A DNA stretch of 64,000 nt from Bacillota bacterium. Its GTDB lineage: Bacteria > Bacillota > Clostridia > Christensenellales > CAG-138. Both the position numbers and the translations under genes were made by a program. Under the pieces are notes generated by a model, which did no database searches, was not told the DNA's origin, and saw only the letters and a list, made by a program, of their open reading frames with translations. Below are positions 44,530 to 63,564 of the stretch, in pieces (position 1 is the first letter of the stretch; each line of letters opens with the position of its first letter). Location: contig JAEESS010000004.1 of the NCBI GenBank assembly GCA_016286445.1, positions 1 to 64,000 of the forward strand, given 5' to 3'.

Positions 44530-47500
44530 TCAGTTGATTACCGTGGTGTAGGTCGTGGTTTCGGTCACGTTCCCCAGCTTCCAGAAGCAGATGTCCGGAT
44601 TCGCCGAGCGGGCGATCGCGAAATAATTCTTCGCGGTGCTGAAGCCGAGGTGCGACAGCTTCGTGCTCGCCGCGTTCGTGGCGTCCACGGCACCGTCGGC
44701 GATCGCAAACGTCCAGCGGTCATAGCTTGCCGTATCGGTCTTGTAGCTGTAGAGGTAGCCGCCGCGGCTTGCAAGGTACGTTCCGGTCGTGGCGTTCTTT
44801 ATCGTGAACTTGCCGTCTGCCGCCGCGATCGTGAAGATGTAGTCGTTCGCCACGTTCGCCAGCGTCTCGCCGTTCAGCGTCATGCCGGTCGTATTGAATG
44901 CGGCGCAGCCGCCCGCCGTTGCGGTCTCGAGCTTCTTGGTGCCGGCAACGCCCTTCAGCACCTTCATCGCATTGGTCTTGCCGAACGTGATGACGTAGCT
45001 GCCCGCCCAGTCGGACGGCGCTTCGGTCACCAGCTCAAAGGCTGCCGCAGAGGTATCGGTGTGCGAGAACAGCGCCTTCAGCGTGACGTCCGCAGTCGCG
45101 GAGTAGCTGCCGGTCAGAACCTCAGGCAGCGTTGCGACATTCACAACGTCCTCCGTGACCCAGCCGAGGAAGGTGTATCCTGCCGGCGCGGTGACGGTCG
45201 GGAGCGTGATGGACGCGCCTGCCTGACAGTTCATGGCAGCGGGCGCGGTGACGCCTGCGGGCACGGAGAAGGTCACCGTGTAGCCCAAAGCGTCGGTGTA
45301 GCTGTCGACGAAGCTGTAACCGCAGACGGTGCAGGTATGCGTCGTGTAGCCCTGTTCGGTCTGCGTCGGCGCAGTCACGACGTCGTTATAGGTGCAGTTT
45401 TCGGTGACGATGTCGCCGCACTCCGAGCAGGTGTGGCTGTGCGTGCCGTCGTTGTTCGAGGTCCAATCGCCGTAGGTGTGCGTATGCGGTGCGACCGGGT
45501 TGGTGGTGTAGTAGGTCAGGTTGCCGCCGTTCTCTCTCCAGAAGCGGACGTTCTTTGCGGCAGACGCGCCGCTTGATGTGCTGCCGGACCAGAAGTACCC
45601 GCTGCCGGAGCTGAAGCCGAGGAGCGGATAGCTGCCGTTGTTGGCGTGAGTCGCGCTGCTGGCGTTGTCCAGCGTGCCGGGCGTCCAGTCGCAGTTGCCG
45701 GACGTATAGCTCGTGTAACCCGCCAGATACGAGGAGGAGTCCTCGCCTACGTACGCGTTTGTCGACGCGCTCTGGATGGAATAGTAACTGCCGTGCTTCG
45801 CAAGCTTGAAGATGTAGCTGTTCGCGACGTTTGTAAGGACAGAGCCCGAAAGCGAAACGCCTGCGTTCGCATAGGTGGTTGCGTTGGCGGCGCTTTCGAT
45901 CTGCGCGCCGTTGGAGCTCGGCGTGACGCCCGTCATCACATACATGCCCGTATCGGTGCCGTAGGTGATGACGTAGTTGCCGGTCCAGTCGGTCGGCGCA
46001 TTGGAAACCAGCTCATAGCCGACGTCTCCTGCGCCCTCTTCCACGCGGGTATAGAGCGCGTACAGCGTCGTGTTTGCAGTAACGGTGTAGCTTGCACCGG
46101 GTGTAAGGAAACCGGGCTTCAGCGTCGTTTCGTTCGGAACCTCCGTGTCCGTCCAGCCGGAGAACGTCCAGCCCTCCGCGTTGACGCTGACGGAGCTCGG
46201 CAGCGTGATCGCGTCGCCGTCAAAGGCGGTCTGGCTGCCTTCGTTGCTGCCGGCAGCGACGAAGCTCACGGTATAGCTGGGCTTTGCCGCAAAGATGACG
46301 CGGATCATGCAGTCGCTCGAAGGCGTGACGGTGATGATATTTCCGCTGACCGTCGCGGTCGCGGTGCCGCTTATGACCTCATAGCCGGAGACGTAGTAGC
46401 CGGTTGCGGGCGTTGCGGTGATCTTGATGCCGTCAACGGAGACCGTGCCCCACGCCTCGTTGTTCGAGACCGCGGTGACCGTATACGGAGAAGCGAGCTT
46501 GATGCCGATATACTTCAGGTTGGAGCTTGCGCCGGACGGCGGATTGTAGACGCCGTTCACCGGCTTGACCGTGATCGCGCCGCCGCCCTTGATGGAGCAG
46601 GACGTACCGGTAAAGATGACCGGTCCCAGAAGGCTCCACGGATTTTCGACGTTGTTGTACTGGGTCGGATCGTAGCCGTCCTGCACCTTAAAGCCGTAGA
46701 TGCCGTTATACTGGTTCTGCGCGGCGTTGGCGGTCACCGCGACGCGGAAATCACGGACCAGATCCGCGCAGTTCACGCCGGTCGCGCTGGTGATGGCGGA
46801 CGTTTCGCTGCTGCTGTATTTGTTCGAGATCTGCTTATAGATCGTGTTGCCGAAGCGGGTAAAGAGGTACTGGGCAAAGAAGGAGACCTGCGAGTACAGC
46901 GCAAGGATCGCGTTGTTGTCAAGATTGTTGTCCCAGTTGTACATCGAAAAGCCCGTGTGGAGGCTGTTCGCGGAATCATACATGAACTCTTTCGGCGGAT
47001 TCAGCCAGTCGTTGTTGTCGGAATAGTAATATTCCTCCCAGGACTGGATGCGGCCCACGACCGAGCTTCCGGGATAACAGATCTCTTCCGCCGCGGCGGA
47101 GAAGCACTCGTTGAGCCAGGTGCTCATGCTGCTGGTGTTGGAATAGTTGATCAGATGCTGATACTCATGGACCATGGTGTTGTAAGTATCGTCCATCCGC
47201 TTGTATTCGGTACCGGCGGAATTCTTGTAGTAGACGCCCGGGTAGGTGTCGATGTTCAAAATTGGGAGACCGTTGTTGGTGATATCCACCTGATAGAAGA
47301 AGCCGGCAACATAGCCCTGACCGGGCTGCCATCCGTCGTTGATGTTGTAATACAGCATGTGCAGCTTGCCGTCGCCGGAGGAGCCGTTGGTGTGGTTCCC
47401 GAAGGAGGATTGCATCAGATCGAACTTGGAGTCGAACTCGTCCGCAGCCAACTTGGCATAGGTGGAGTCGATCTCATCCAAAGGATAGGTGTTGTTGGAG

Positions 47501-48018
47501 GAAGAGACCGGCGTCCAGATGTAGCAGTGCTGGCCGACATAAAGGCATTCAAACGACACGCTGGAGCTGCCGGTCGGAGAATACTGCTGGAGGATCTTGA
47601 AGGTTTTGGTTTCGCCGACGCTGTAGGACGCCTTGACCGGGTCCTGCGGCGTGACCGACTGTACTTCGGACTGCGCCTGCGTCTTCAATGCGGAGTCGAT
47701 GTCGATCTTGTACATTGGCTTTTCCGGATTCATCACGCTCTGGATCGGGAACGTGCTGGCGTTCGCCTCGATGGTTGTCTCGATGAGCCCGGTCATCGTG
47801 CCGGTGGAGTAGGAAGTCGAAGAGGACGTCGCAGGATTGTAGATGACGACGTAGTCGCCCTCGTAACCGCCGGTCGCGTCGGTGTCGATGATGATGCTGT
47901 TCTGGATGCCGCGGACGTTTGCGGGTTCCCGATCGTTCTTATCCGCGAACGCCGGGAGCGCCGGGAGTGCAAGAAGCAGAACGAGCAGCAGGGATAGAAT
48001 CGATTTGAGTGCTTTCAT
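44530..48018 (-). CDS. large secreted putative zinc metalloprotease (HEYQH, M30-like) with InlB-type and repeated C-terminal modules
   Basis: signal peptide; NTMVHEYQHLINYSNTSSMSTWLNECFSAAAEE; repeated ELVxxAPxDWxGxYVITxG modules. Confidence 0.75.
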   Translation of the reverse strand: MKALKSILSLLLVLLLALPALPAFADKNDREPANVRGIQNSIIIDTDATGGYEGDYVVIYNPATSSSTSYSTGTMTGLIETTIEANASTFPIQSVMNPEKPMYKIDIDSALKTQAQSEVQSVTPQDPVKASYSVGETKTFKILQQYSPTGSSSVSFECLYVGQHCYIWTPVSSSNNTYPLDEIDSTYAKLAADEFDSKFDLMQSSFGNHTNGSSGDGKLHMLYYNINDGWQPGQGYVAGFFYQVDITNNGLPILNIDTYPGVYYKNSAGTEYKRMDDTYNTMVHEYQHLINYSNTSSMSTWLNECFSAAAEEICYPGSSVVGRIQSWEEYYYSDNNDWLNPPKEFMYDSANSLHTGFSMYNWDNNLDNNAILALYSQVSFFAQYLFTRFGNTIYKQISNKYSSSETSAITSATGVNCADLVRDFRVAVTANAAQNQYNGIYGFKVQDGYDPTQYNNVENPWSLLGPVIFTGTSCSIKGGGAITVKPVNGVYNPPSGASSNLKYIGIKLASPYTVTAVSNNEAWGTVSVDGIKITATPATGYYVSGYEVISGTATATVSGNIITVTPSSDCMIRVIFAAKPSYTVSFVAAGSNEGSQTAFDGDAITLPSSVSVNAEGWTFSGWTDTEVPNETTLKPGFLTPGASYTVTANTTLYALYTRVEEGAGDVGYELVSNAPTDWTGNYVITYGTDTGMYVMTGVTPSSNGAQIESAANATTYANAGVSLSGSVLTNVANSYIFKLAKHGSYYSIQSASTNAYVGEDSSSYLAGYTSYTSGNCDWTPGTLDNASSATHANNGSYPLLGFSSGSGYFWSGSTSSGASAAKNVRFWRENGGNLTYYTTNPVAPHTHTYGDWTSNNDGTHSHTCSECGDIVTENCTYNDVVTAPTQTEQGYTTHTCTVCGYSFVDSYTDALGYTVTFSVPAGVTAPAAMNCQAGASITLPTVTAPAGYTFLGWVTEDVVNVATLPEVLTGSYSATADVTLKALFSHTDTSAAAFELVTEAPSDWAGSYVITFGKTNAMKVLKGVAGTKKLETATAGGCAAFNTTGMTLNGETLANVANDYIFTIAAADGKFTIKNATTGTYLASRGGYLYSYKTDTASYDRWTFAIADGAVDATNAASTKLSHLGFSTAKNYFAIARSANPDICFWKLGNVTETTTYTTVIN

Positions 48019-53866: not shown

Positions 53867-56689
53867 TTACTCCTGTTCGGTCGGATAGTCCGACTTGCCG
53901 GTGATCTTGCGCTTGATGATCTTGCCCATGCGCTTCAGCGCGTACGGACCGACGAGCTTCATCATCTCCTCCGCGGTGTGCATTTCGCTCGCGGCGGGCA
54001 GATCGCGGGAAAGATGGATCGCGTCGAACTCGCAGCGAGTGGTGCACAGCCCGCAGCCGATGCACTGGTTCAGATCGACCGTCGTCGCGCCGCAGCCGAG
54101 GCAGCGGTTCGCCTCGACCTTGACCTGCTCTTCGGTCAGCGGCAGGCGAAGATCGTGGAACGTCGCTCGCGCGTCGCCGGGCATAAACCCCGGACGCTGA
54201 CGCGGGGAGTTGTCGAACGAATCGGGTCGCGTGATATCCTCGCGGTCGAACTCGATGAACTTCCGAAGGTCCCTTCCGATCGTCAGCGACTGACCCGGAT
54301 GCACGAAGCGGTTGATCGAGACCATGCCCTCTCTGCCGTCCGCGATCGCGTCGATCGCAAACTTCGCGCCGTGGAAGATGTCGCCGCCGACAAACACGTC
54401 GGGCTCGGCGGTCTGATACGTTGTCGGATCGGCGACCGCCGTGCCGTTTCTGCGGACCTCGACCTTGCTGCCTTCGAGCAGGCTTCCCCACTCGGCGCTC
54501 TGCCCGATCGCCATCAGCACGTTTTCGCACGGGACCGTCATCGTGTCGTTTTCGTCGTAGACCGGGCTGAACCGGTGCTCCTCATCGTAGACACGCGTGC
54601 AGCGCTTGAACACGACAGCCGTGACCTTGCCGGCTTCGTCTCGCAAAACCTCCTTCGGTCCCCAGCCGTTTTCGATCGCGATGCCCTCTTCAAGCACCTC
54701 TTCGATCTCGTCCTTTGCCGCGGGCATCTCGTCCCGCTGTTCAAGGCACAGCATCGTGACCTTGCCCTTCGTTGCGCGCAGCGCCGTTCTTGCGACGTCC
54801 GCCGCGACGTTGCCGCCGCCGACGATCACGACGTCGCCCGAAAGCGTTTCGTTTCCGTTTTGGTTCACGCGCTTCAAAAACGCGACGCCGGATTCAACGC
54901 CTTCGCCGTCCTCGCCCGGCACGCCGGCGGTCCTGCCGCCCTGCAGACCGATCGCGACATAGAACGCCTTATAGCCCTGTCTTCTCAGCTCGTCGAGCGT
55001 GATGTCCTTACCGACCTCGACGCCGCAGACGATCTTTGCGCCCATCTTTTCGACGATCGAGATCTCCTTTTCGAGCACGTCCTTTTCGAGGCGGAAGCTC
55101 GGAATACCGTTCAAGAGCATGCCGCCCGGACGGCTTTCCTTTTCAAACACGGTGACCGGATAGCCCTCTTTGCGCAGATAATACGCCGCGGAAAGTCCCG
55201 CGGGACCCGCGCCGATCACTGCGATCGGGTAATCCGTCCACTGCTTGCCCTCGCCGTTTTCGCAGATCTCGGTGAAGTGCTCGGGATGTTCAAGCTCCCA
55301 CTTTGCGAGGAACTTCTTGATCTCGTCGATCGCGACCGGCTTGTCGATCGTGCCGCGCGTGCAGCGGTCCTCGCAGCGGCGGTTGCAGACCGCGCCGCAG
55401 ACCGCCGGGAACGGATTGTCCTGCCGGATCAGCCTGACGGCTTCGGCATATCTGCCCTCCGACGCCATCTTGATATAGCCCTGCACCGCGATATGCGCCG
55501 GGCACGCCGTTTTGCACGGGGACGTGCCGGTATCGTAGCAGTTTTCCTTATTGTGATCGCGATAGTCGCGGTCCCACTTGTCCTCGCCCCAGACGTGGTC
55601 GTCCGGCAGCTCGTGCATCGGGTACTTCACCCGCGAGCCGTCCGCTTTGCAGAGCTTCTGCCCCAGCTTCGCCGCGCCTGCAGGACAGACCTCGACGCAC
55701 TTGCCGCAGGCGACGCACTTCGACTTATCGACATGCGCGCGGTATGCGGAGCGCGACATGTTCGGCGTGTTGAAGAGCTGCGAGGTGCGAAGCCCGTAGC
55801 AGCTGCCCGGCGAGCAGTTGCAGATGCCCACGATGCGGTTCGGGCCGTCCAAGTTCGTGATCTGATGCACATAGCCCTTGCGCTCGGCGCGTTCGATGAT
55901 CTCCATCGCCTCTTCGCGCGTGATGTAGCGCGCGTCCTTGCCGGTCTCGACCAGAAACTCCGCGATATCGCCGACGCCGATGCACATATGTCCTTCGATG
56001 TCGCCGACGCCCTCGCCGCGAATGCGCTGCGCCTTGCGGCATGCGCAGACCATGGTGCAGAACTTGTCGTACTTCTGCAGCCAGTGCGAAAGATGCTCAA
56101 CGGAAACGCTCTGCGAGCCTGCGTCGATCGCCTTTTCGACCGGAATGACGTGCATGCCGATGCCCGCGCCGCCCGGCGGAACGAGCTTTGCGGCAAGCTC
56201 CAGCGGCTCCTGCGGCGCAAGGTTGAACATCGTTGCGACCTCCGGATGCTCGTCCGGCAGCGTCTTGTGCTCGACCATGTATTCGCCCGAGCCCACGACC
56301 CACTTCGGGATCATGTACTGAATGTGCTGATCGGCGTTATCGCGGTTCTGTTCAAGGATGCCGATCCAGATGAGATGGTCGATGACCTTCTGCGCCTCTG
56401 CCTCGGTCATGCCGTTGCGCGCGGCGATCTCTTTGGTCGTCAGCCCCACGCGGCGTTTCTTGAAGCTCAGCATGAATTTGACCTCGTCCCTCGTCAAAAG
56501 ACGGTCGAGGATCCAGAAATCCATGTGATTTTCCTTCATGCCGCCGGGAAGCTTGCGCGGGATGTTGTCCGTGATGAGAAGCGCAAGCTTTTTCACAAGC
56601 TTTGCCTTCTCGGGATCGTCGCAATGATGTCCCTCGATCGGATAATCCTTCTCGTTGACGTGGATCTTCGGATTGACTTCTTTGACCAT
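53867..56689 (-). CDS. 940-aa FAD-dependent oxidoreductase (GltD-like) with N-terminal Fe-S/winged-helix-like region and several 4Fe-4S motifs
   Basis: CVACGKCVEVCPAGA; PIAVIGAGPAGLSAAYYLRKEGYPVTVFEKESRPGGML; VIVGGGNVAADVARTA; CIGCGLCTTRCEFDAI. Confidence 0.85.
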   Translation of the reverse strand: MVKEVNPKIHVNEKDYPIEGHHCDDPEKAKLVKKLALLITDNIPRKLPGGMKENHMDFWILDRLLTRDEVKFMLSFKKRRVGLTTKEIAARNGMTEAEAQKVIDHLIWIGILEQNRDNADQHIQYMIPKWVVGSGEYMVEHKTLPDEHPEVATMFNLAPQEPLELAAKLVPPGGAGIGMHVIPVEKAIDAGSQSVSVEHLSHWLQKYDKFCTMVCACRKAQRIRGEGVGDIEGHMCIGVGDIAEFLVETGKDARYITREEAMEIIERAERKGYVHQITNLDGPNRIVGICNCSPGSCYGLRTSQLFNTPNMSRSAYRAHVDKSKCVACGKCVEVCPAGAAKLGQKLCKADGSRVKYPMHELPDDHVWGEDKWDRDYRDHNKENCYDTGTSPCKTACPAHIAVQGYIKMASEGRYAEAVRLIRQDNPFPAVCGAVCNRRCEDRCTRGTIDKPVAIDEIKKFLAKWELEHPEHFTEICENGEGKQWTDYPIAVIGAGPAGLSAAYYLRKEGYPVTVFEKESRPGGMLLNGIPSFRLEKDVLEKEISIVEKMGAKIVCGVEVGKDITLDELRRQGYKAFYVAIGLQGGRTAGVPGEDGEGVESGVAFLKRVNQNGNETLSGDVVIVGGGNVAADVARTALRATKGKVTMLCLEQRDEMPAAKDEIEEVLEEGIAIENGWGPKEVLRDEAGKVTAVVFKRCTRVYDEEHRFSPVYDENDTMTVPCENVLMAIGQSAEWGSLLEGSKVEVRRNGTAVADPTTYQTAEPDVFVGGDIFHGAKFAIDAIADGREGMVSINRFVHPGQSLTIGRDLRKFIEFDREDITRPDSFDNSPRQRPGFMPGDARATFHDLRLPLTEEQVKVEANRCLGCGATTVDLNQCIGCGLCTTRCEFDAIHLSRDLPAASEMHTAEEMMKLVGPYALKRMGKIIKRKITGKSDYPTEQE

Positions 56690-56698
56690 GATATCTCC

Positions 56699-57883
56699 TT
56701 ACTCGATCGGGATCTTGATCGTCATGTCGGAAAGCGGATACGCCGCGCAGGCGTGGACGTAGTTGAAATCCCTGTCCGCCGCGCGTCTGCCGTCGTTTTC
56801 GGGGCAAACATAGTATTCGCCCGAAAGCACCTTCGTGCGGCAGAAGCCGCATTCGCCGCTGCGGCACGCCGTTTCGATGCGGATGCCCGCGCGTTCGAGC
56901 GCGACGACGAGCGATTCCGTCGTCTTTGCGGGGATCTCATCTTTATGGATGCCGCGCACGACCGTGACGGTATAGGTCTCGTCCTTCTGTTCGACCGGGT
57001 AGCCCGCAAACGTCGTGATGTCCTTCGCCTGTCCGAAAACCTCGAAGCGCACGCGCCGCGCCGGCACGTCGAGCTTTTTGATCTCTTCGCGCAGGAATTT
57101 GTACATGACCTGCGGACCGCAGATGAAGTAGGACGTGTCGCCCTTACTGTACTTTTTGATCAGCTCCGCGGAAAGGAAGCCGCGCTCGCCCGTCCAGTCG
57201 GGTTCGTCGCCCGAGAGCACGTTTACGACGTGCACACGATCGCTTTCCAAAGCAGCAAGCTCGTCCTTTAGGATGATGTCGTTCGACGCCACAGAGCCGT
57301 ACAGGATCGTCAGCTCCGCGTCTATCGTGCCGTTTGCGATCTCCTTTGCCATCGACGCAAACGGCGTGATGCCGACGCCGCCCGCCAGCGCCATGATGTG
57401 ATGCGCATCGCGAAGCGGCTCAAAATAGAACTGTCCGAGCCCGATGTTGCCCTTGATAACCGTTCCGACGGTCAGCCCGTCGTTGACAAAGTCCGCAATG
57501 AAGCCGTCGCCCTTGCTCCTGCGCACGGTGATCTCGATATAGCCCGGGTCCTTGCGCGCCTCGAACGGCGCCGAGGAGATCGAGTACGGTCTCGAAACGA
57601 TCTTGCCGTCGATCTCGAAATCGAGCGCAACGAACTGTCCCGCATAGAACGGGGGCAGCTTGCCGCCGCCGACCTTTTCAAAGCGGACGGTCTTTGCCGT
57701 GGGGCTTGCGGTGCGGATCTCTTTGACGACGAGATCGAGCTTGCCCGGATGCCATTCCCTTGCGACATTGCCGATCGGGTCAACGGTCTCCGGCGTTTCG
57801 GAAGCGGACTGAAATGCGTGAAGACGCGCTTTGGTGACGCGCGACGCGCCGCCGACGTCCTTTAAGAATCCCTTGACCTTCAT
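56699..57883 (-). CDS. flavin/2Fe-2S ferredoxin reductase
   Basis: RPYSISSAP FAD-binding, GGVGITPFASMAKEI NAD(P)-binding, CRSGECGFCRTKVLSG 2Fe-2S motif. Confidence 0.88.
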   Translation of the reverse strand: MKVKGFLKDVGGASRVTKARLHAFQSASETPETVDPIGNVAREWHPGKLDLVVKEIRTASPTAKTVRFEKVGGGKLPPFYAGQFVALDFEIDGKIVSRPYSISSAPFEARKDPGYIEITVRRSKGDGFIADFVNDGLTVGTVIKGNIGLGQFYFEPLRDAHHIMALAGGVGITPFASMAKEIANGTIDAELTILYGSVASNDIILKDELAALESDRVHVVNVLSGDEPDWTGERGFLSAELIKKYSKGDTSYFICGPQVMYKFLREEIKKLDVPARRVRFEVFGQAKDITTFAGYPVEQKDETYTVTVVRGIHKDEIPAKTTESLVVALERAGIRIETACRSGECGFCRTKVLSGEYYVCPENDGRRAADRDFNYVHACAAYPLSDMTIKIPIE

Positions 57884-59412
57884 TTTGCCGCCTCCTTCTT
57901 TTTCATATCGTCCAGCACGTTCTTTGCCGCCTTTCTGCCGTTCGTCACCGCCGGTCCCATGCCGTCGCCGGAGATCTGGTGCGCGCCGGCGAACTCAAGC
58001 CCTTCGATGAACTTTTCCTGCTCCGCGGTCTGCAGTCTTGCGACGATGTGATCCTCCATCGTGTGCGCGTAGCCGTAGATGCAGCCGTTCCACATGCCGG
58101 TATAGTGCGCGACGGTCATCGGCGTTTCAATGACGATCTCCAGAACGTGATCCAAAAAGTTTACGCCGTAGTACTTACTCATATCGTCGATCATCTGCTT
58201 TGCGACCTCATGCTTGACGCGGTCGTAATCGTCGGCGGAAACCGTCTTCCAGCCGTCCACGCGCGGCAGCGTCGTGATCGAGAACGAGCAGGTGCCCGCG
58301 GGCGTCGCGTCCGGATTCGCGTAGTTATGGCAGATGCAGGTCAGATAGCGGTACGGTCCGAGCCCTGCAAGATCGGCATACAGCGCTTCGGTGTCCATCG
58401 TGTCGCCGCGGAAGATGCTGTAATCGTGAATGCCGAGCTCCTCGGCGGGCTTGTCGAGGATCATGATGACCGAAAACGCGGTGAGGCTCAGGCGTCTCCC
58501 GTTGACCATCTTGATCGCTTCCTTCGGGACCTCGGAGAGCGGTTCAATCATCGAGGTATAGACCTTGTTCGGATACGCGGCACTGATGACATAATCCGCG
58601 TGGATCTCGTCGCCGCGCGCGGTGCGCACGCCGTAGACCTTGCCGTCACGAACGAGGATCTTTTCAACGTGCTGCTTATATTCGATCTGCACGCCCATCT
58701 GTTCGGCGCGCTCCGCCATTTTAAGGCTCATCTCGTGGCTGAACTTATGCGGGATGTACGAGCCGTAGCCGATGTAGTCCGCCATCAGCACCGAGAAGAT
58801 CGTAAACGGCAGCGTCCGGAAGCCTGTGCCGACGTAGATCCAGTACGGCGCCAGAAGGTCCTGCGCCTTCTGCGGCAGGTCGAACGTATCGATGACCTCC
58901 TGCGTGGAATAGCCAGCGGTCTTGACGAATGCTTCGTGCTTTAAGAGCATCTGCACCTTGCTCATCGGGTGGATCGAAAGCTCGTTGACGGAATCGAACA
59001 CCGTGTGGCAGAGGTTCAGAAGCTTCAGCACCTTGTCATAGGTGCCGGGGACGGCGGCGTCCACTTCCTTCGCGAACGTTTCAAGCCCCGGATGCAGCGT
59101 GACCTCAAGCCCCGGCAGCGAAGCGTGATACGCCTCGGGGACCTTGAGCCAGTCGATCTTTACCCCCATGTCCTCCAAAAACTTTCCGACCTTTAAGCGG
59201 TTGCCCTCGGGACCGATGCTCATCATCTCGTGCAGCGCGGCTTCGATCTCAATGCCGCCGCGGACGAAGCTGGTCGCGATGCCGCCGGGCAGGTTGTGGC
59301 GTTCGAGCACCAGCACGTCCTTGCCCTTTTCGGCGAGCATCAGCGCGGATGACAGTCCCGCCAAAGCGCCGCCGATGACGATGACGTCATAATGATCTTT
59401 GTAGAATTTCAT
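57880..59412 (-). CDS. NAD(P)/FAD-dependent oxidoreductase, CrtI/RetSat-like
   Basis: YDVIVIGGALAGLSSALMLAEKGKDVLVLERHNLPGGIATSFVRGG; C-terminal GAHQISGDGMGPAVTNGRKAA. Confidence 0.87.
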   Translation of the reverse strand: MKFYKDHYDVIVIGGALAGLSSALMLAEKGKDVLVLERHNLPGGIATSFVRGGIEIEAALHEMMSIGPEGNRLKVGKFLEDMGVKIDWLKVPEAYHASLPGLEVTLHPGLETFAKEVDAAVPGTYDKVLKLLNLCHTVFDSVNELSIHPMSKVQMLLKHEAFVKTAGYSTQEVIDTFDLPQKAQDLLAPYWIYVGTGFRTLPFTIFSVLMADYIGYGSYIPHKFSHEMSLKMAERAEQMGVQIEYKQHVEKILVRDGKVYGVRTARGDEIHADYVISAAYPNKVYTSMIEPLSEVPKEAIKMVNGRRLSLTAFSVIMILDKPAEELGIHDYSIFRGDTMDTEALYADLAGLGPYRYLTCICHNYANPDATPAGTCSFSITTLPRVDGWKTVSADDYDRVKHEVAKQMIDDMSKYYGVNFLDHVLEIVIETPMTVAHYTGMWNGCIYGYAHTMEDHIVARLQTAEQEKFIEGLEFAGAHQISGDGMGPAVTNGRKAAKNVLDDMKKKEAAK

Positions 59413-59635: not shown

Positions 59636-61024
59636 TCAGAAGAACCGTTCGACGAGCTCGCGGGAGTATTCCGCGGTCTCATCCATATCGCCGAAGCTCA
59701 TGATCTCGCCGGCATAGAACGTGTCGTACTTGCCCTGCATCGCCTCGACCTTGTCATACCAGCCCGCGGCATAGTCCTCGGAGAAGACATGCGGGAAGTA
59801 ATAGACGCTCCACTCGTTGACGACGTTGCTCGCCGGATTCTTCATGATCTTGAGATCTTCGAGCACCGTCTTTTTGCACGCCTCGTACGGGATCTCCGGG
59901 GTGCCCTTGTGCTTTCTCAAAGCATAGGTGGTGATGACCTGATCCTTGGTGTCCTTCCAGCGGCGATAGTAGACCATCAGATGTCCCATCGTTTCCGGCG
60001 TCATGTTCTCGAACACATAGTAGGAGATCTCCGGATGATCCTCCGGCTTGGTCTCGACCGCCAGCACGTCGTAGCGCTCGTAGTCGATCTTGCTGAACAG
60101 CGCCTTTTCGTCCTCGCGTGCGTCGAAGTAATCGACCATGCCGACCTGCCCGTCCGTGCGCTTGTTCGGGATGTAGAGCGGCGCGGTGACAATGATCTTG
60201 TCGTACTCCTCGACGGCGCCGTTGACCGTGACAAACACCTTGCCGTCTTTACGCTCGACCTTTTCGATCTTGGAGTTCAGTCTTGCCGGATGCTTCAGAT
60301 GATCGTTCAGCTGTTCCCAGATGTACTGCGTGCCGTTCTTCCACGTCCAGAGATTGATCTTGACGAAGTTCATGCAGGTCTGGAAATCCAGATACTTCAA
60401 AACGTACGCCGCCGGGATCTCGTCGAAGTAGCCGTAGCCGAAGGAGGTAAACGGCCCGATCCAGATATCCTGGATGAGATCGACGCCGTTCAGCTTGCAG
60501 AACTCCTTGAACGGCAGGCAGAGATCCTTGAGGTTCGGGTTCTCGCCCTTGACCGGCTCGCGCTTTGCGCTTGCCTGCGAAAAGCCCTCGTAGCGGCCTT
60601 CCGCAACGCCGCGGTGACCGTTCAGGTCGTAGCCCTTATACTTGGTCTCCAGAAGCTCGCCGAGCTTTTTCACCTGCTTCTTCATTCGGAGAAGACGCGG
60701 GATCTTGAGAATGTTCTTTTTCGGCTCGAAGGGCTCGATGACCTTGCCCTCTTTATTCTTGTAGTTGCGGTTGAGTTTCGGACCGTCATGCGTGATGCCG
60801 CAGAACTCCTCGACGTCGTGGACGGCGTAGTAGCTCGGCACGCCCATGATCGCGCCCATCTCGTATCGGCGTCCGTTGTAGGTCGGGGACCAGCATTTGC
60901 CGCCGACGCGGTCGAGCCGTTCGAGGATCGTATAGTTTTCATACCCCTTCTGTTCGAGATACATACCGGCGGAAAGCCCCGCGGGACCGCCGCCGACGAT
61001 GCAGATGCGTACGTTCTTATCCAT
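59636..61024 (-). CDS. FAD-dependent amine-oxidase-fold protein resembling C. acnes polyunsaturated fatty acid double-bond isomerase (PAI)
   Basis: GGGPAGLSAGMYLEQKGYENYTILERLDRVGGKCWSPTYNGRRYEMGAIMGVPSYYAV and YYFPHVFSEDYAAGWYDKVEAMQGKYDTFYAGEIMSFGDMDE, recalled as very close to PAI. Confidence 0.82.
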   Translation of the reverse strand: MDKNVRICIVGGGPAGLSAGMYLEQKGYENYTILERLDRVGGKCWSPTYNGRRYEMGAIMGVPSYYAVHDVEEFCGITHDGPKLNRNYKNKEGKVIEPFEPKKNILKIPRLLRMKKQVKKLGELLETKYKGYDLNGHRGVAEGRYEGFSQASAKREPVKGENPNLKDLCLPFKEFCKLNGVDLIQDIWIGPFTSFGYGYFDEIPAAYVLKYLDFQTCMNFVKINLWTWKNGTQYIWEQLNDHLKHPARLNSKIEKVERKDGKVFVTVNGAVEEYDKIIVTAPLYIPNKRTDGQVGMVDYFDAREDEKALFSKIDYERYDVLAVETKPEDHPEISYYVFENMTPETMGHLMVYYRRWKDTKDQVITTYALRKHKGTPEIPYEACKKTVLEDLKIMKNPASNVVNEWSVYYFPHVFSEDYAAGWYDKVEAMQGKYDTFYAGEIMSFGDMDETAEYSRELVERFF

Positions 61025-61131
61025 TTCTCTGTCCTCCGTGTAATTTGTGATACTTCACAGCAGAATTATTATACAACACTTCCTTATAAAATGCACGCGT
61101 TTTTTTCGCTTTTTCCCCGCGTTTTTATTAA

Positions 61132-61145
61132 ATTGTTCAAACAAT
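61132..61145. promoter_or_regulatory. palindrome in divergent intergenic region
   Basis: ATTGTTCAAACAAT between divergent start codons 61024(-) and 61236(+). Confidence 0.5.
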
Positions 61146-61235
61146 GGAATTTGCGGAAAATCACGGCGCGTTTTTCGGAAAAATCTTTTCTTTGTCGGTG
61201 AAATGTGCTACAATGAATGTTACGGAGGTGATCCC

Positions 61236-62594
61236 ATGCGTTTTTCCGGTTTTTCCGAATTGCTGAACCATTTTGCAGAGCAATCGCCCGACGCGCCCGC
61301 GCTGCGCTATGCGCAAAACGGCGCGATCAAAACCTGCACCTATGCCGAGCTGTCCGCCCGCGTCGAAAAGCGCGCCGTGTTTCTCAAAGCGTCGCAAAAG
61401 CAGGCGTACGGCATTCTTGCGAACGGCTCATTCGACTGTGTGATCGAGATCTTCGCCTCCGTGCTTTCCGGACGCCGCACCGTCCTTTTGAATGAAAACG
61501 CCGCGGACGAGGTGCTTTCGGAGCAGGTCAGAGAAGCCGGGCTCGACGCGCTTTGGGGCGATCCGGATCTCAAAGAGTACTTAATGCCTTTGCTTGTCGA
61601 TTCCGCCGAGGGCGGCGCGGGCAGGCTTCTGTTCTTCACCTCCGGCACCACGAGCCGCGCAAAGGCGGTCGTGCTCTCCGACGCGTCTCTGATGAGCTCC
61701 GCCTATAACGGCGGCGCGCTTCTGCCGCTTTCCCCCGCCGACACGCTTCTTTGCATACTGCCGCTCGATCACGTCTTCGGTTTTGTGTGCGGACTTCTGT
61801 GGGGACTTTCGTGCGGCGCGTGCGTCGCGCTTTCCCGCGGGGCGCGTCATTATCACGAGGACTGCATCTTCTTCCGCCCGACCGCGCTGTCCGCCGTGCC
61901 GTCGCTTTTGGGCTTCCTGCTGAAATACCGCGCGCTGAATCCGGAATTGAAAACGATCCTGATCGGCGCAGGCGGGTGTCCGCCGGAGATTCTGCGCGCG
62001 GCGCAGACGACCGACGCGCGCGTCTGCTTCGGCTATGGGCTCACGGAAACGAGCTCCGGCGTTGCGCTGTCTTTGGGCGAGGGCGATCCGTACGCGATGA
62101 CGGTCTGTCCGGACGACACGGTCACGATCGCGGACGACGGCGAGGTGCTGATCACCGCCGCCACCTGCATGATGCAGGGCTACTGGCATAAGCCGGAGGA
62201 CACGGCGGCGGTCCTCAGAGACGGCGTGCTGTATACCGGCGACCTCGGTACGCTCGACGAAACAGGCAAGCTCCGGCTCACCGGACGCAAAAAAGAGATG
62301 CTCGTGCTCAGTGACGGGACCAAGCTGTACCTTCCGGAATACGAGCAGGCGCTTTCAAACGCGCTCGGCGGCGAAGCGGTCTGCGTGCTGCTCATCGGGG
62401 ATCTGCCGATCCTTGTTCTGGAGGGCGACATGCGCGATCCCGCGCCGATCTGGGCAAAGATCCGTCCCGTGCTCGACGCGCGTGCGCGCAACCAGCAGAT
62501 CAAGCGGATCGAGTTTTATGAAAATCCGTTCCCCCGGACGGCAAGCGGAAAGATCATGCGTTGGGCGATCCAACGGGAAAGAGAGGGGTTATGA
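61236..62594 (+). CDS. AMP-binding acyl-CoA/acyl-ACP ligase
   Basis: LLFFTSGTTSRAKAVVLSDASL, CFGYGLTETSSGVALSLGEG, YTGDLGTLDETGKLRLTGRKKEMLVLSDG; RBS ggaggtg before the ATG. Confidence 0.9.
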   Translation: MRFSGFSELLNHFAEQSPDAPALRYAQNGAIKTCTYAELSARVEKRAVFLKASQKQAYGILANGSFDCVIEIFASVLSGRRTVLLNENAADEVLSEQVREAGLDALWGDPDLKEYLMPLLVDSAEGGAGRLLFFTSGTTSRAKAVVLSDASLMSSAYNGGALLPLSPADTLLCILPLDHVFGFVCGLLWGLSCGACVALSRGARHYHEDCIFFRPTALSAVPSLLGFLLKYRALNPELKTILIGAGGCPPEILRAAQTTDARVCFGYGLTETSSGVALSLGEGDPYAMTVCPDDTVTIADDGEVLITAATCMMQGYWHKPEDTAAVLRDGVLYTGDLGTLDETGKLRLTGRKKEMLVLSDGTKLYLPEYEQALSNALGGEAVCVLLIGDLPILVLEGDMRDPAPIWAKIRPVLDARARNQQIKRIEFYENPFPRTASGKIMRWAIQREREGL

Positions 62595-62845
62595 CCCGCA
62601 GAGAAGAGATCCTGAACAAAACGAGAGAGATCATCGTCGAATCGCTGCCCGAGCTGGAAGGCAGGGAGTTCAACGAGGACACCGTCATCAACACGGACAC
62701 CGGCGTCGATTCCATGGGCTTTACGCTGATCATCTGCCGTCTTGAAGCGGCGTTCGACGTACGCATCCCGAACCGGCAATGGCAGAAGCTGTCCACCGTA
62801 AAGGACGTCGTCGACGCGATCGAAAAGCGGATGCCGAAGGCATAA
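62591..62845 (+). CDS. acyl carrier protein
   Basis: 84-aa acidic protein with GVDSMGFTLIICRLEAAFDVRIP phosphopantetheine-Ser motif; ATGA overlap with the ligase. Confidence 0.88.
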   Translation: MTRREEILNKTREIIVESLPELEGREFNEDTVINTDTGVDSMGFTLIICRLEAAFDVRIPNRQWQKLSTVKDVVDAIEKRMPKA

Positions 62846-62847
62846 GC

Positions 62848-63564
62848 ATGTATCGGATCGATTATACCGTACTGAGCTCCGACACGGACGCGAACCGCAG
62901 ACTGCGCCTATCGCGTCTTTTTACCATGCTCCAGGAGGCGTCGATCGCGCATACGACCGAACTCGGCATGGGTCGTGAAATGACGCTCGACCGCGGGCTA
63001 TTGTGGATCGTCACGCTGCAGCAGGCAAAGATTGCGCGGATGCCGGAATACGACGAGCGCATCCGGCTCGTTTCCTGGCCCGGCAGGATGATGCACCTGC
63101 TGTTCCCCCGCTATTACCGCATCGAGGACGAGCGTGGCAATGCGCTCGTCGAGGCGAGCGCGCTCTGGGCGCTGATGGATCAAAAGACGCGCCGCATCGT
63201 GTTCCCGGAGCTGTACGGCGTCAAGATCCGCGGCGTGCACACCGGCAGGGAGATCCCGCTGCCCGTCGCGCCGAAGATGCCGGCGAACGCGAAGGAAAGC
63301 GCGTTTACCGTGCCTTACAGCTTTGTCGATCTCAACGGGCATATGAACAACACGCGCTACTTCGATCTTGCCGAGGACCGCATGCCGAAAGCGCTGCGCG
63401 AACGACCTCTTTCCGGCGTGCAGACGGAATACGCCAAGGAAGCGAAGGAAGGCGAAACGATCCTTCTGAGAAGCGAAGTCAGACACGACGCCTATCTGCT
63501 GTCCGGCGAGCAGGACGGCGCAAAGCTGTTCCGCCTGTCGCTGACCTTCGGCGAAACACGGTGA
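62848..63564 (+). CDS. acyl-ACP thioesterase
   Basis: two hot-dog halves: YTVLSSDTDANRRLRLSRLFTMLQEASIAHTTELG and YSFVDLNGHMNNTRYFDLAEDRM. Confidence 0.87.
   Translation: MYRIDYTVLSSDTDANRRLRLSRLFTMLQEASIAHTTELGMGREMTLDRGLLWIVTLQQAKIARMPEYDERIRLVSWPGRMMHLLFPRYYRIEDERGNALVEASALWALMDQKTRRIVFPELYGVKIRGVHTGREIPLPVAPKMPANAKESAFTVPYSFVDLNGHMNNTRYFDLAEDRMPKALRERPLSGVQTEYAKEAKEGETILLRSEVRHDAYLLSGEQDGAKLFRLSLTFGETR

Follow-up and report, generated by a model that had tools for sequence, protein, structure and literature searches.

A probable PAI-type linoleate isomerase heads a conserved fatty-acid gene cluster in ruminant-gut Clostridia

The window analysed here is a stretch of 64,000 nucleotides (contig JAEESS010000004.1) from a genome of the class Clostridia. 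Towards its right end, four genes on the minus strand (PAI, CRT, FNR and GltD-like, in this order) diverge from three genes on the plus strand (acyl ligase, acyl carrier protein and thioesterase). The leading gene of the minus-strand arm (59636..61024) encodes a homologue of the PAI-type polyunsaturated fatty acid (PUFA) double-bond isomerase, an FAD flavoprotein of 462 residues that was assigned by its match to PDB entry 2b9w, by conserved residues and by a structural model. Its open reading frame is complete, with the ATG 8 nt downstream of GGAGG and without internal stop codon, and agrees with the coordinates given in the initial annotation.

Directly downstream, a gene at 57880..59412 (minus strand, ATG at 59412 behind AAGGAG) codes for a CRT-like FAD protein of the CrtISO/CrtI superfamily with 510 residues. 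This protein matches the carotenoid isomerase model TIGR02730 over its full length (E 3e-32, under the cut-off of the model) and the gamma-carotene desaturase of PDB entry 4rep (E 5e-14). Its AlphaFold model (pLDDT 61, built from 7 sequences) resembles gamma-carotene desaturase with a TM score of ~0.6, which is supportive at most. The superfamily includes saturases, desaturases and isomerases and acts on conjugated polyenes. The FNR gene (56699..57883, minus strand) shares 4 nt with the CRT gene and encodes a ferredoxin-reductase-type flavoprotein of 394 residues with a C-terminal plant-type 2Fe-2S domain (PF00970, PF00175 and PF00111). The last gene of this arm (53867..56689, minus strand) encodes an NfnL/GltD-like multi-Fe-S flavoprotein of 940 residues, recognized by its PDB matches and extended by a Cys-rich N-terminal domain.

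The plus-strand arm begins with an AMP-forming acyl ligase of 452 residues (61236..62594; PF00501, E 2e-37), whose ATG stands behind GGAGGTGA and whose C-terminal part carries the motif RTASGK. It is followed by a dedicated acyl carrier protein (ACP) of 84 residues with a DSM phosphopantetheine site (62591..62845; PF00550, E 2.5e-7) and by an acyl-ACP thioesterase of the FatA/FatB type (62848..63564; PF01643, E 4e-24; PF20791, E 4.5e-10). The two arms are separated by an intergenic region (61025..61235), in which a TATAAT hexamer at 61068-61073 (minus strand) resembles a -10 element for the PAI operon; TATAATA is present in 46 of 83 upstream regions. An operator search in the 83 divergent regions revealed no conserved palindrome and no inverted repeat common to more than five loci. 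Elsewhere in the window, a gene at 44530-48018 (minus strand) encodes a secreted-looking protein of 1162 residues with a zinc-protease-like HEYQH motif and repeated C-terminal segments.

In a phmmer search of all PDB sequences, the top matches of the window protein (2b9w, 2b9x, 2b9y, 2ba9, 2bab and 2bac) are all Cutibacterium acnes PAI, with 458 bits and E 2.3e-136 for 2b9w. The next PDB sequence is a monoamine oxidase with 41.7 bits. Identical residues occupy 224 of 416 aligned positions (54%; residues 135-138 of C. acnes PAI were entered as X in the alignment), far from the twilight-zone identity that would have spoken against the relationship. The initial annotation had recognized a PAI homologue from its two ends. 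The N-terminal motif GRRYEMGAIMGVPSY is indeed identical in C. acnes PAI, and every specified letter of the pattern YYFPHV.SEDY.AGWY.KVE.MQG...TFYAGEIMSFG matches as well. Residues 2-138 and 166-462 form aligned blocks that are collinear with C. acnes PAI, so the resemblance extends beyond these two ends, and the end-to-end identity, the fold match to 2b9w and the placement in the tree described below all support the assignment.

It had also been foreseen that automated annotation would return a generic label. This is the case: Pfam yields Amino_oxidase (72.6 bits, cut-off 19.8) and generic Rossmann models but nothing else, and no NCBIfam model reaches its own cut-off on the window protein. 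Taken at face value, these models would make it an ordinary FAD-dependent amine oxidase or another oxidoreductase of the MAO superfamily with an unrelated substrate, and MAO-type structures are indeed found among the next fold matches. The gap between 458 bits for PAI and 42 bits for the next solved relative makes this reading very improbable. Furthermore, the adjoining genes are concerned with fatty acids rather than amines, and 36 positions that are near-invariant within the PAI clade are different in the outgroup.

A chance match or a pseudogene was ruled out by the homology to the PDB entries together with the data on stop codons and dN/dS. None of the best 80 of at least 516 relatives in the GTDB species set has a stop codon in its best aligned segment. 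A lone copy (L124) is interrupted when read straight through the whole match, and a few other copies are cut by contig ends. The median dN/dS of relatives against the window gene is 0.077 (n = 46 pairs). The PAI gene of the window is under purifying selection.

The AlphaFold model of the window protein, built with 22 homologues, has a pLDDT of 87 and a pTM of 0.89. Its best fold match in the PDB is again 2b9w, with TM scores of 0.88 (query) and 0.96 (target), an r.m.s. deviation of 2.2 Å and 49% identity. The next best match reaches TM scores of 0.73 and 0.77 at 4.8 Å; the runners-up are CpaO and monoamine oxidases (TM of the query at most 0.73, r.m.s. deviation above 4.5 Å). The model displays the three-domain PAI fold, which is distinct from the MAO enzymes outside the FAD domain. 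Gly11, Gly13 and Gly16 of the FAD-binding GxGxxG motif and the ribose-binding Glu35 are invariant in the 22 homologues. Every available test of sequence and structure places the window protein in the PAI family.

Arg88, Phe168 and Phe193 of C. acnes PAI correspond to Arg86, Phe195 and Phe220 of the window protein. A loss of residues lining the substrate tunnel had been named as evidence against a PAI assignment; these three are retained, and a comparison of residue identity found them in 101 of 101 clade members examined. We take Arg88 to be the anchor of the substrate carboxylate, which C. acnes PAI binds in its free form, and Phe193 to be the gate of the tunnel with Phe168 close by. A literature search found no open paper giving the active-site residues of PAI. 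In six distant relatives, Arg88 and Phe193 are retained and Phe168 is replaced by Tyr in four. Two insertions distinguish the window protein from C. acnes PAI. The first (~27 residues, 139-165) is a predicted beta hairpin and is found in all members from the order of the window, and the second (~10 residues, 285-294) is found in proteins of its own family. Since both are absent from C. acnes PAI, the substrate or product may differ.

The window protein and C. acnes PAI belong to a clade of 28 sequences that is separated from five distant relatives with a support of 100/100. C. acnes PAI, which is to our knowledge the sole member of this clade that has been assayed, is nested among clostridial homologues. 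Its sister is the protein of locus L138 from another clostridial order (genome G537; support 99/91), and the PAI clade has two main branches, of which this pair is one.

With E < 1e-30, PAI homologues are found in 20 of 297 genomes and 12 of 125 genera of the order of the window, and only two more were found in 391 genomes sampled from the class. A search at the level of the phylum yielded nothing but a distant PAI subfamily with ~30% identity. Within the family of the window, PAI is present in 24 of 103 genomes, all of them from two genera. A search on plasmids found only a Photobacterium protein with 27% identity. One genome (G214) has two PAI copies, L041 (G214:C37) and L025 (G214:C53), both located at contig ends; they may stem from two strains or from a genuine duplication.

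A scan of 84,980 species genomes yielded at least 516 PAI relatives. The best 80 of these were listed, and the list favours close kin; it shows the habitat of the clade of the window and not that of all PAI relatives. The label of class Clostridia is attached to 73 of these 80 loci, in line with the Clostridia-like origin that had been proposed from the sequence. A ruminant is named in the titles of 35 loci (cattle, goat, sheep, buffalo, roe deer or red deer), mostly together with the site (rumen, omasum, reticulum, abomasum or intestine). RUG rumen assemblies account for another 31, so that 66 of 80 titles indicate a ruminant-gut source. The remaining 14 titles do not reveal one.

The gene neighbourhood was compared in the same best 80 of at least 516 loci, with those loci as denominators that have enough flanking sequence. 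The putative isomerase gene is thereby linked to candidates for a reductase and an electron donor: CRT immediately follows PAI in 75 of 76 loci and FNR occupies its cluster position in 70 of 71. The GltD-like gene is in operon position in 38 of 52 loci. In the divergent arm, where the ligase gene adjoins PAI, ligase and ACP are present in 64 of 68 loci and the thioesterase in 63 of 68. This gene order holds although the identities of the neighbour proteins drop to 38–60%. The initial annotation noted neither the cluster nor the association with ruminants.

The cluster is also found at L138, where PAI, CRT and FNR diverge from ligase, ACP and thioesterase in a locus without the GltD-like gene. 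Identities to the window are 54% for PAI, 62% for CRT, 55% for FNR, 41% for the ligase, 50% for ACP and 42% for the thioesterase. As the L138 protein is the sister of C. acnes PAI, the cluster may be as old as the PAI clade, with C. acnes PAI as one branch of it. Co-occurrence across genomes shows the same association. Among the 103 genomes of the family, 24 have PAI, 23 have CRT orthologues and 22 have both (hypergeometric P 4e-19, with shared ancestry ignored). Two PAI genomes lack CRT, and in both the match to PAI is truncated in the manner of a contig end. The PAI genes of several other families of the order have neither CRT nor FNR beside them; their neighbours are HypB, GltD-like and HypA. 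As far as an incomplete literature search could reveal, the conserved cluster is undescribed.

The GltD-like protein consists of two parts. Residues ~380-870 match NfnL/GltD and electron-bifurcating complexes (5jca, 9n5u, 8oh5 and 9bov), the closest solved structures being molybdopterin oxidoreductase (9bov), formate dehydrogenase-O (8oh5) and NfnA (9n5u). In contrast to these systems, the GltD-like protein carries a Cys-rich N-terminal domain with a length of ~310 residues (residues 1-310, window positions 55761-56689, minus strand) with the pattern CxxxCxCR...C...CNCSPGSC. No Pfam model matched this domain, which marks a distinct NfnL-like subfamily, and no NfnS subunit was identified beside the gene. 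The domain is present in 39 of 297 genomes of the order, among them all 20 PAI genomes (P 1e-20, again ignoring shared ancestry).

Outside the family of the window, the GltD-like gene is usually flanked by a HypB-like gene on one side and a HypA-like gene on the other, whether or not PAI is present. Thus, these three genes form a separate module, which has repeatedly been joined by PAI. The trio of HypB-like GTPase, NfnL/GltD-like protein and HypA is found at L171 (G000:C98, 9550-13513) and L172-L190, often without PAI. One of the module's protein families (fam2) had been considered as a TetR regulator, which was rejected because fam2 is a GTPase of the HypB/CobW type; fam3 is HypA. No HypD was found in the genome of the window (assembly 82% complete) and hence no full set of genes for canonical [NiFe] maturation; the HypA/HypB pair probably has a function unrelated to canonical [NiFe] hydrogenase. 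Upstream of PAI, some families have a protein in which the S component of an ECF transporter is joined to a methyltransferase domain (L032:7798-8940, L034:8055-9230 and similar loci); its partner is a second HypB-like GTPase.

PAI works without a supply of electrons, although electron carriers are encoded next to it. This raises the question of whether the window protein is itself an unsaturated fatty acid reductase, in which the flavin is reduced by the GltD-like protein or FNR and a double bond is saturated. The presence of the GltD-like protein in every PAI-bearing genome of the order would fit such an activity. So would the distant subfamily outside the order (~30% identity; PAI_45-type genes L133, L134, L135, L136 and L137): in 5 of 6 genomes it adjoins GltD-like and HypA genes, frequently together with HypB. 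On the other hand, the redox-neutral isomerase of C. acnes is nested within the clade with unchanged active-site residues, and the family of the window already has CRT and FNR as two separate flavoproteins suited to reduction. A reductase is therefore considered unlikely, and isomerase activity of the window protein is very probable.

By analogy with C. acnes PAI, the window protein would isomerise double bonds of free polyunsaturated fatty acids in an FAD-dependent and redox-neutral reaction. Free linoleate would enter the tunnel, and the arginine equivalent to Arg88 would hold its carboxylate. FAD would then take up a hydride from C11, the bis-allylic position of linoleate, and return it at C9 in the case of the 10E,12Z isomer, generating conjugated double bonds with no net redox change. 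The product would most likely be 10E,12Z-conjugated linoleic acid (CLA), a prediction that is less secure than the activity itself. Overall, a PAI-type linoleate isomerase at the head of a fatty-acid cluster is the likely interpretation of the locus.

The roles of the neighbours can be outlined more tentatively. The CRT-like flavoprotein would reduce or re-isomerise the conjugated product; that it reduces the diene, with FNR and the GltD-like protein supplying the electrons, is about as likely as not. FNR would serve as the electron donor and the NfnL/GltD-like protein as the entry point for electrons from NAD(P)H or ferredoxin. Ligase, ACP and thioesterase could load and release the acyl chain, and this handling of acyl chains is a slightly more tentative assignment. 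A dedicated ligase, ACP and acyl-ACP thioesterase in a conserved cluster, and a CRT-like protein from the carotenoid desaturase/isomerase superfamily, would also suit a pathway in which the cell turns an ACP-bound chain of its own into a modified membrane fatty acid or a polyene. PAI would then shift the double bonds of this chain, and dietary PUFA would not be the real substrate. Such a role is improbable, as C. acnes PAI binds a free carboxylate, as the arginine presumed to hold it is invariant and as we know of no anaerobic Clostridia that make methylene-interrupted PUFA. Furthermore, the nearest relatives (the best 80 of at least 516) are from the ruminant gut, where PUFA are dietary. Most likely, the cluster detoxifies dietary PUFA by isomerisation and subsequent reduction, a form of anaerobic biohydrogenation.

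PAI-like genes in rumen assemblies are already known (PMC10019597). Of the 228 rumen MAGs that Zhang et al. (2023) studied, 7 (assigned to Lachnospiraceae, Oscillospiraceae or unclassified) had BLASTp matches to PAI with an identity of 40% or more (PMC10019597). Most likely, these genes belong to the same family as the PAI gene of the window. Residues, structure, gene cluster and wider distribution are not covered in the main text of that study (PMC10019597), and what is new here is the conserved, ruminant-associated PUFA gene cluster. Among 28 rumen species tested, C. acnes was the sole maker of trans-10 fatty acids, and the authors doubted that it is their only or main source (PMC7339423). 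The producers of trans-10 intermediates have not been unambiguously identified (PMC7339423, PMC9853040). A close PAI homologue that is widespread in ruminant-gut Clostridia, together with its conserved cluster, provides named genes and hosts for this question. The full trans-10 pathway would lead from linoleate via trans-10,cis-12 CLA to trans-10 18:1 or beyond. That the cluster constitutes this complete anaerobic pathway, and that its carriers among uncultured ruminant-gut Clostridia are main producers of those trans-10 fatty acids that are associated with milk fat depression, is a speculative and rather unlikely extension.

Compared with C. acnes PAI (2b9w, 2bab and 2bac), which converts linoleate (9Z,12Z) to the 10E,12Z isomer, the window protein has the same fold, FAD motif and tunnel residues. 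It differs by the two insertions, by its host, which belongs to the ruminant-gut Clostridia and not to the Actinobacteria, and by the conserved redox and acyl-carrier neighbours of its gene. The MCRA/oleate hydratase route of lactobacilli (CLA-HY/DH/DC/ER) also leads from linoleate to CLA with FAD enzymes, but it relies on another protein family and on hydration chemistry; no MCRA hydratase was found in the genome of the window (assembly 82% complete). The genomes of the predominant biohydrogenators, Butyrivibrio, are without a recognised linoleate isomerase gene (PMC6249431). Their delta-12 linoleate isomerase, for which no gene is known, and the CLA reductase of the trans-11 route fulfil the same task in the rumen, to isomerise and then to reduce.
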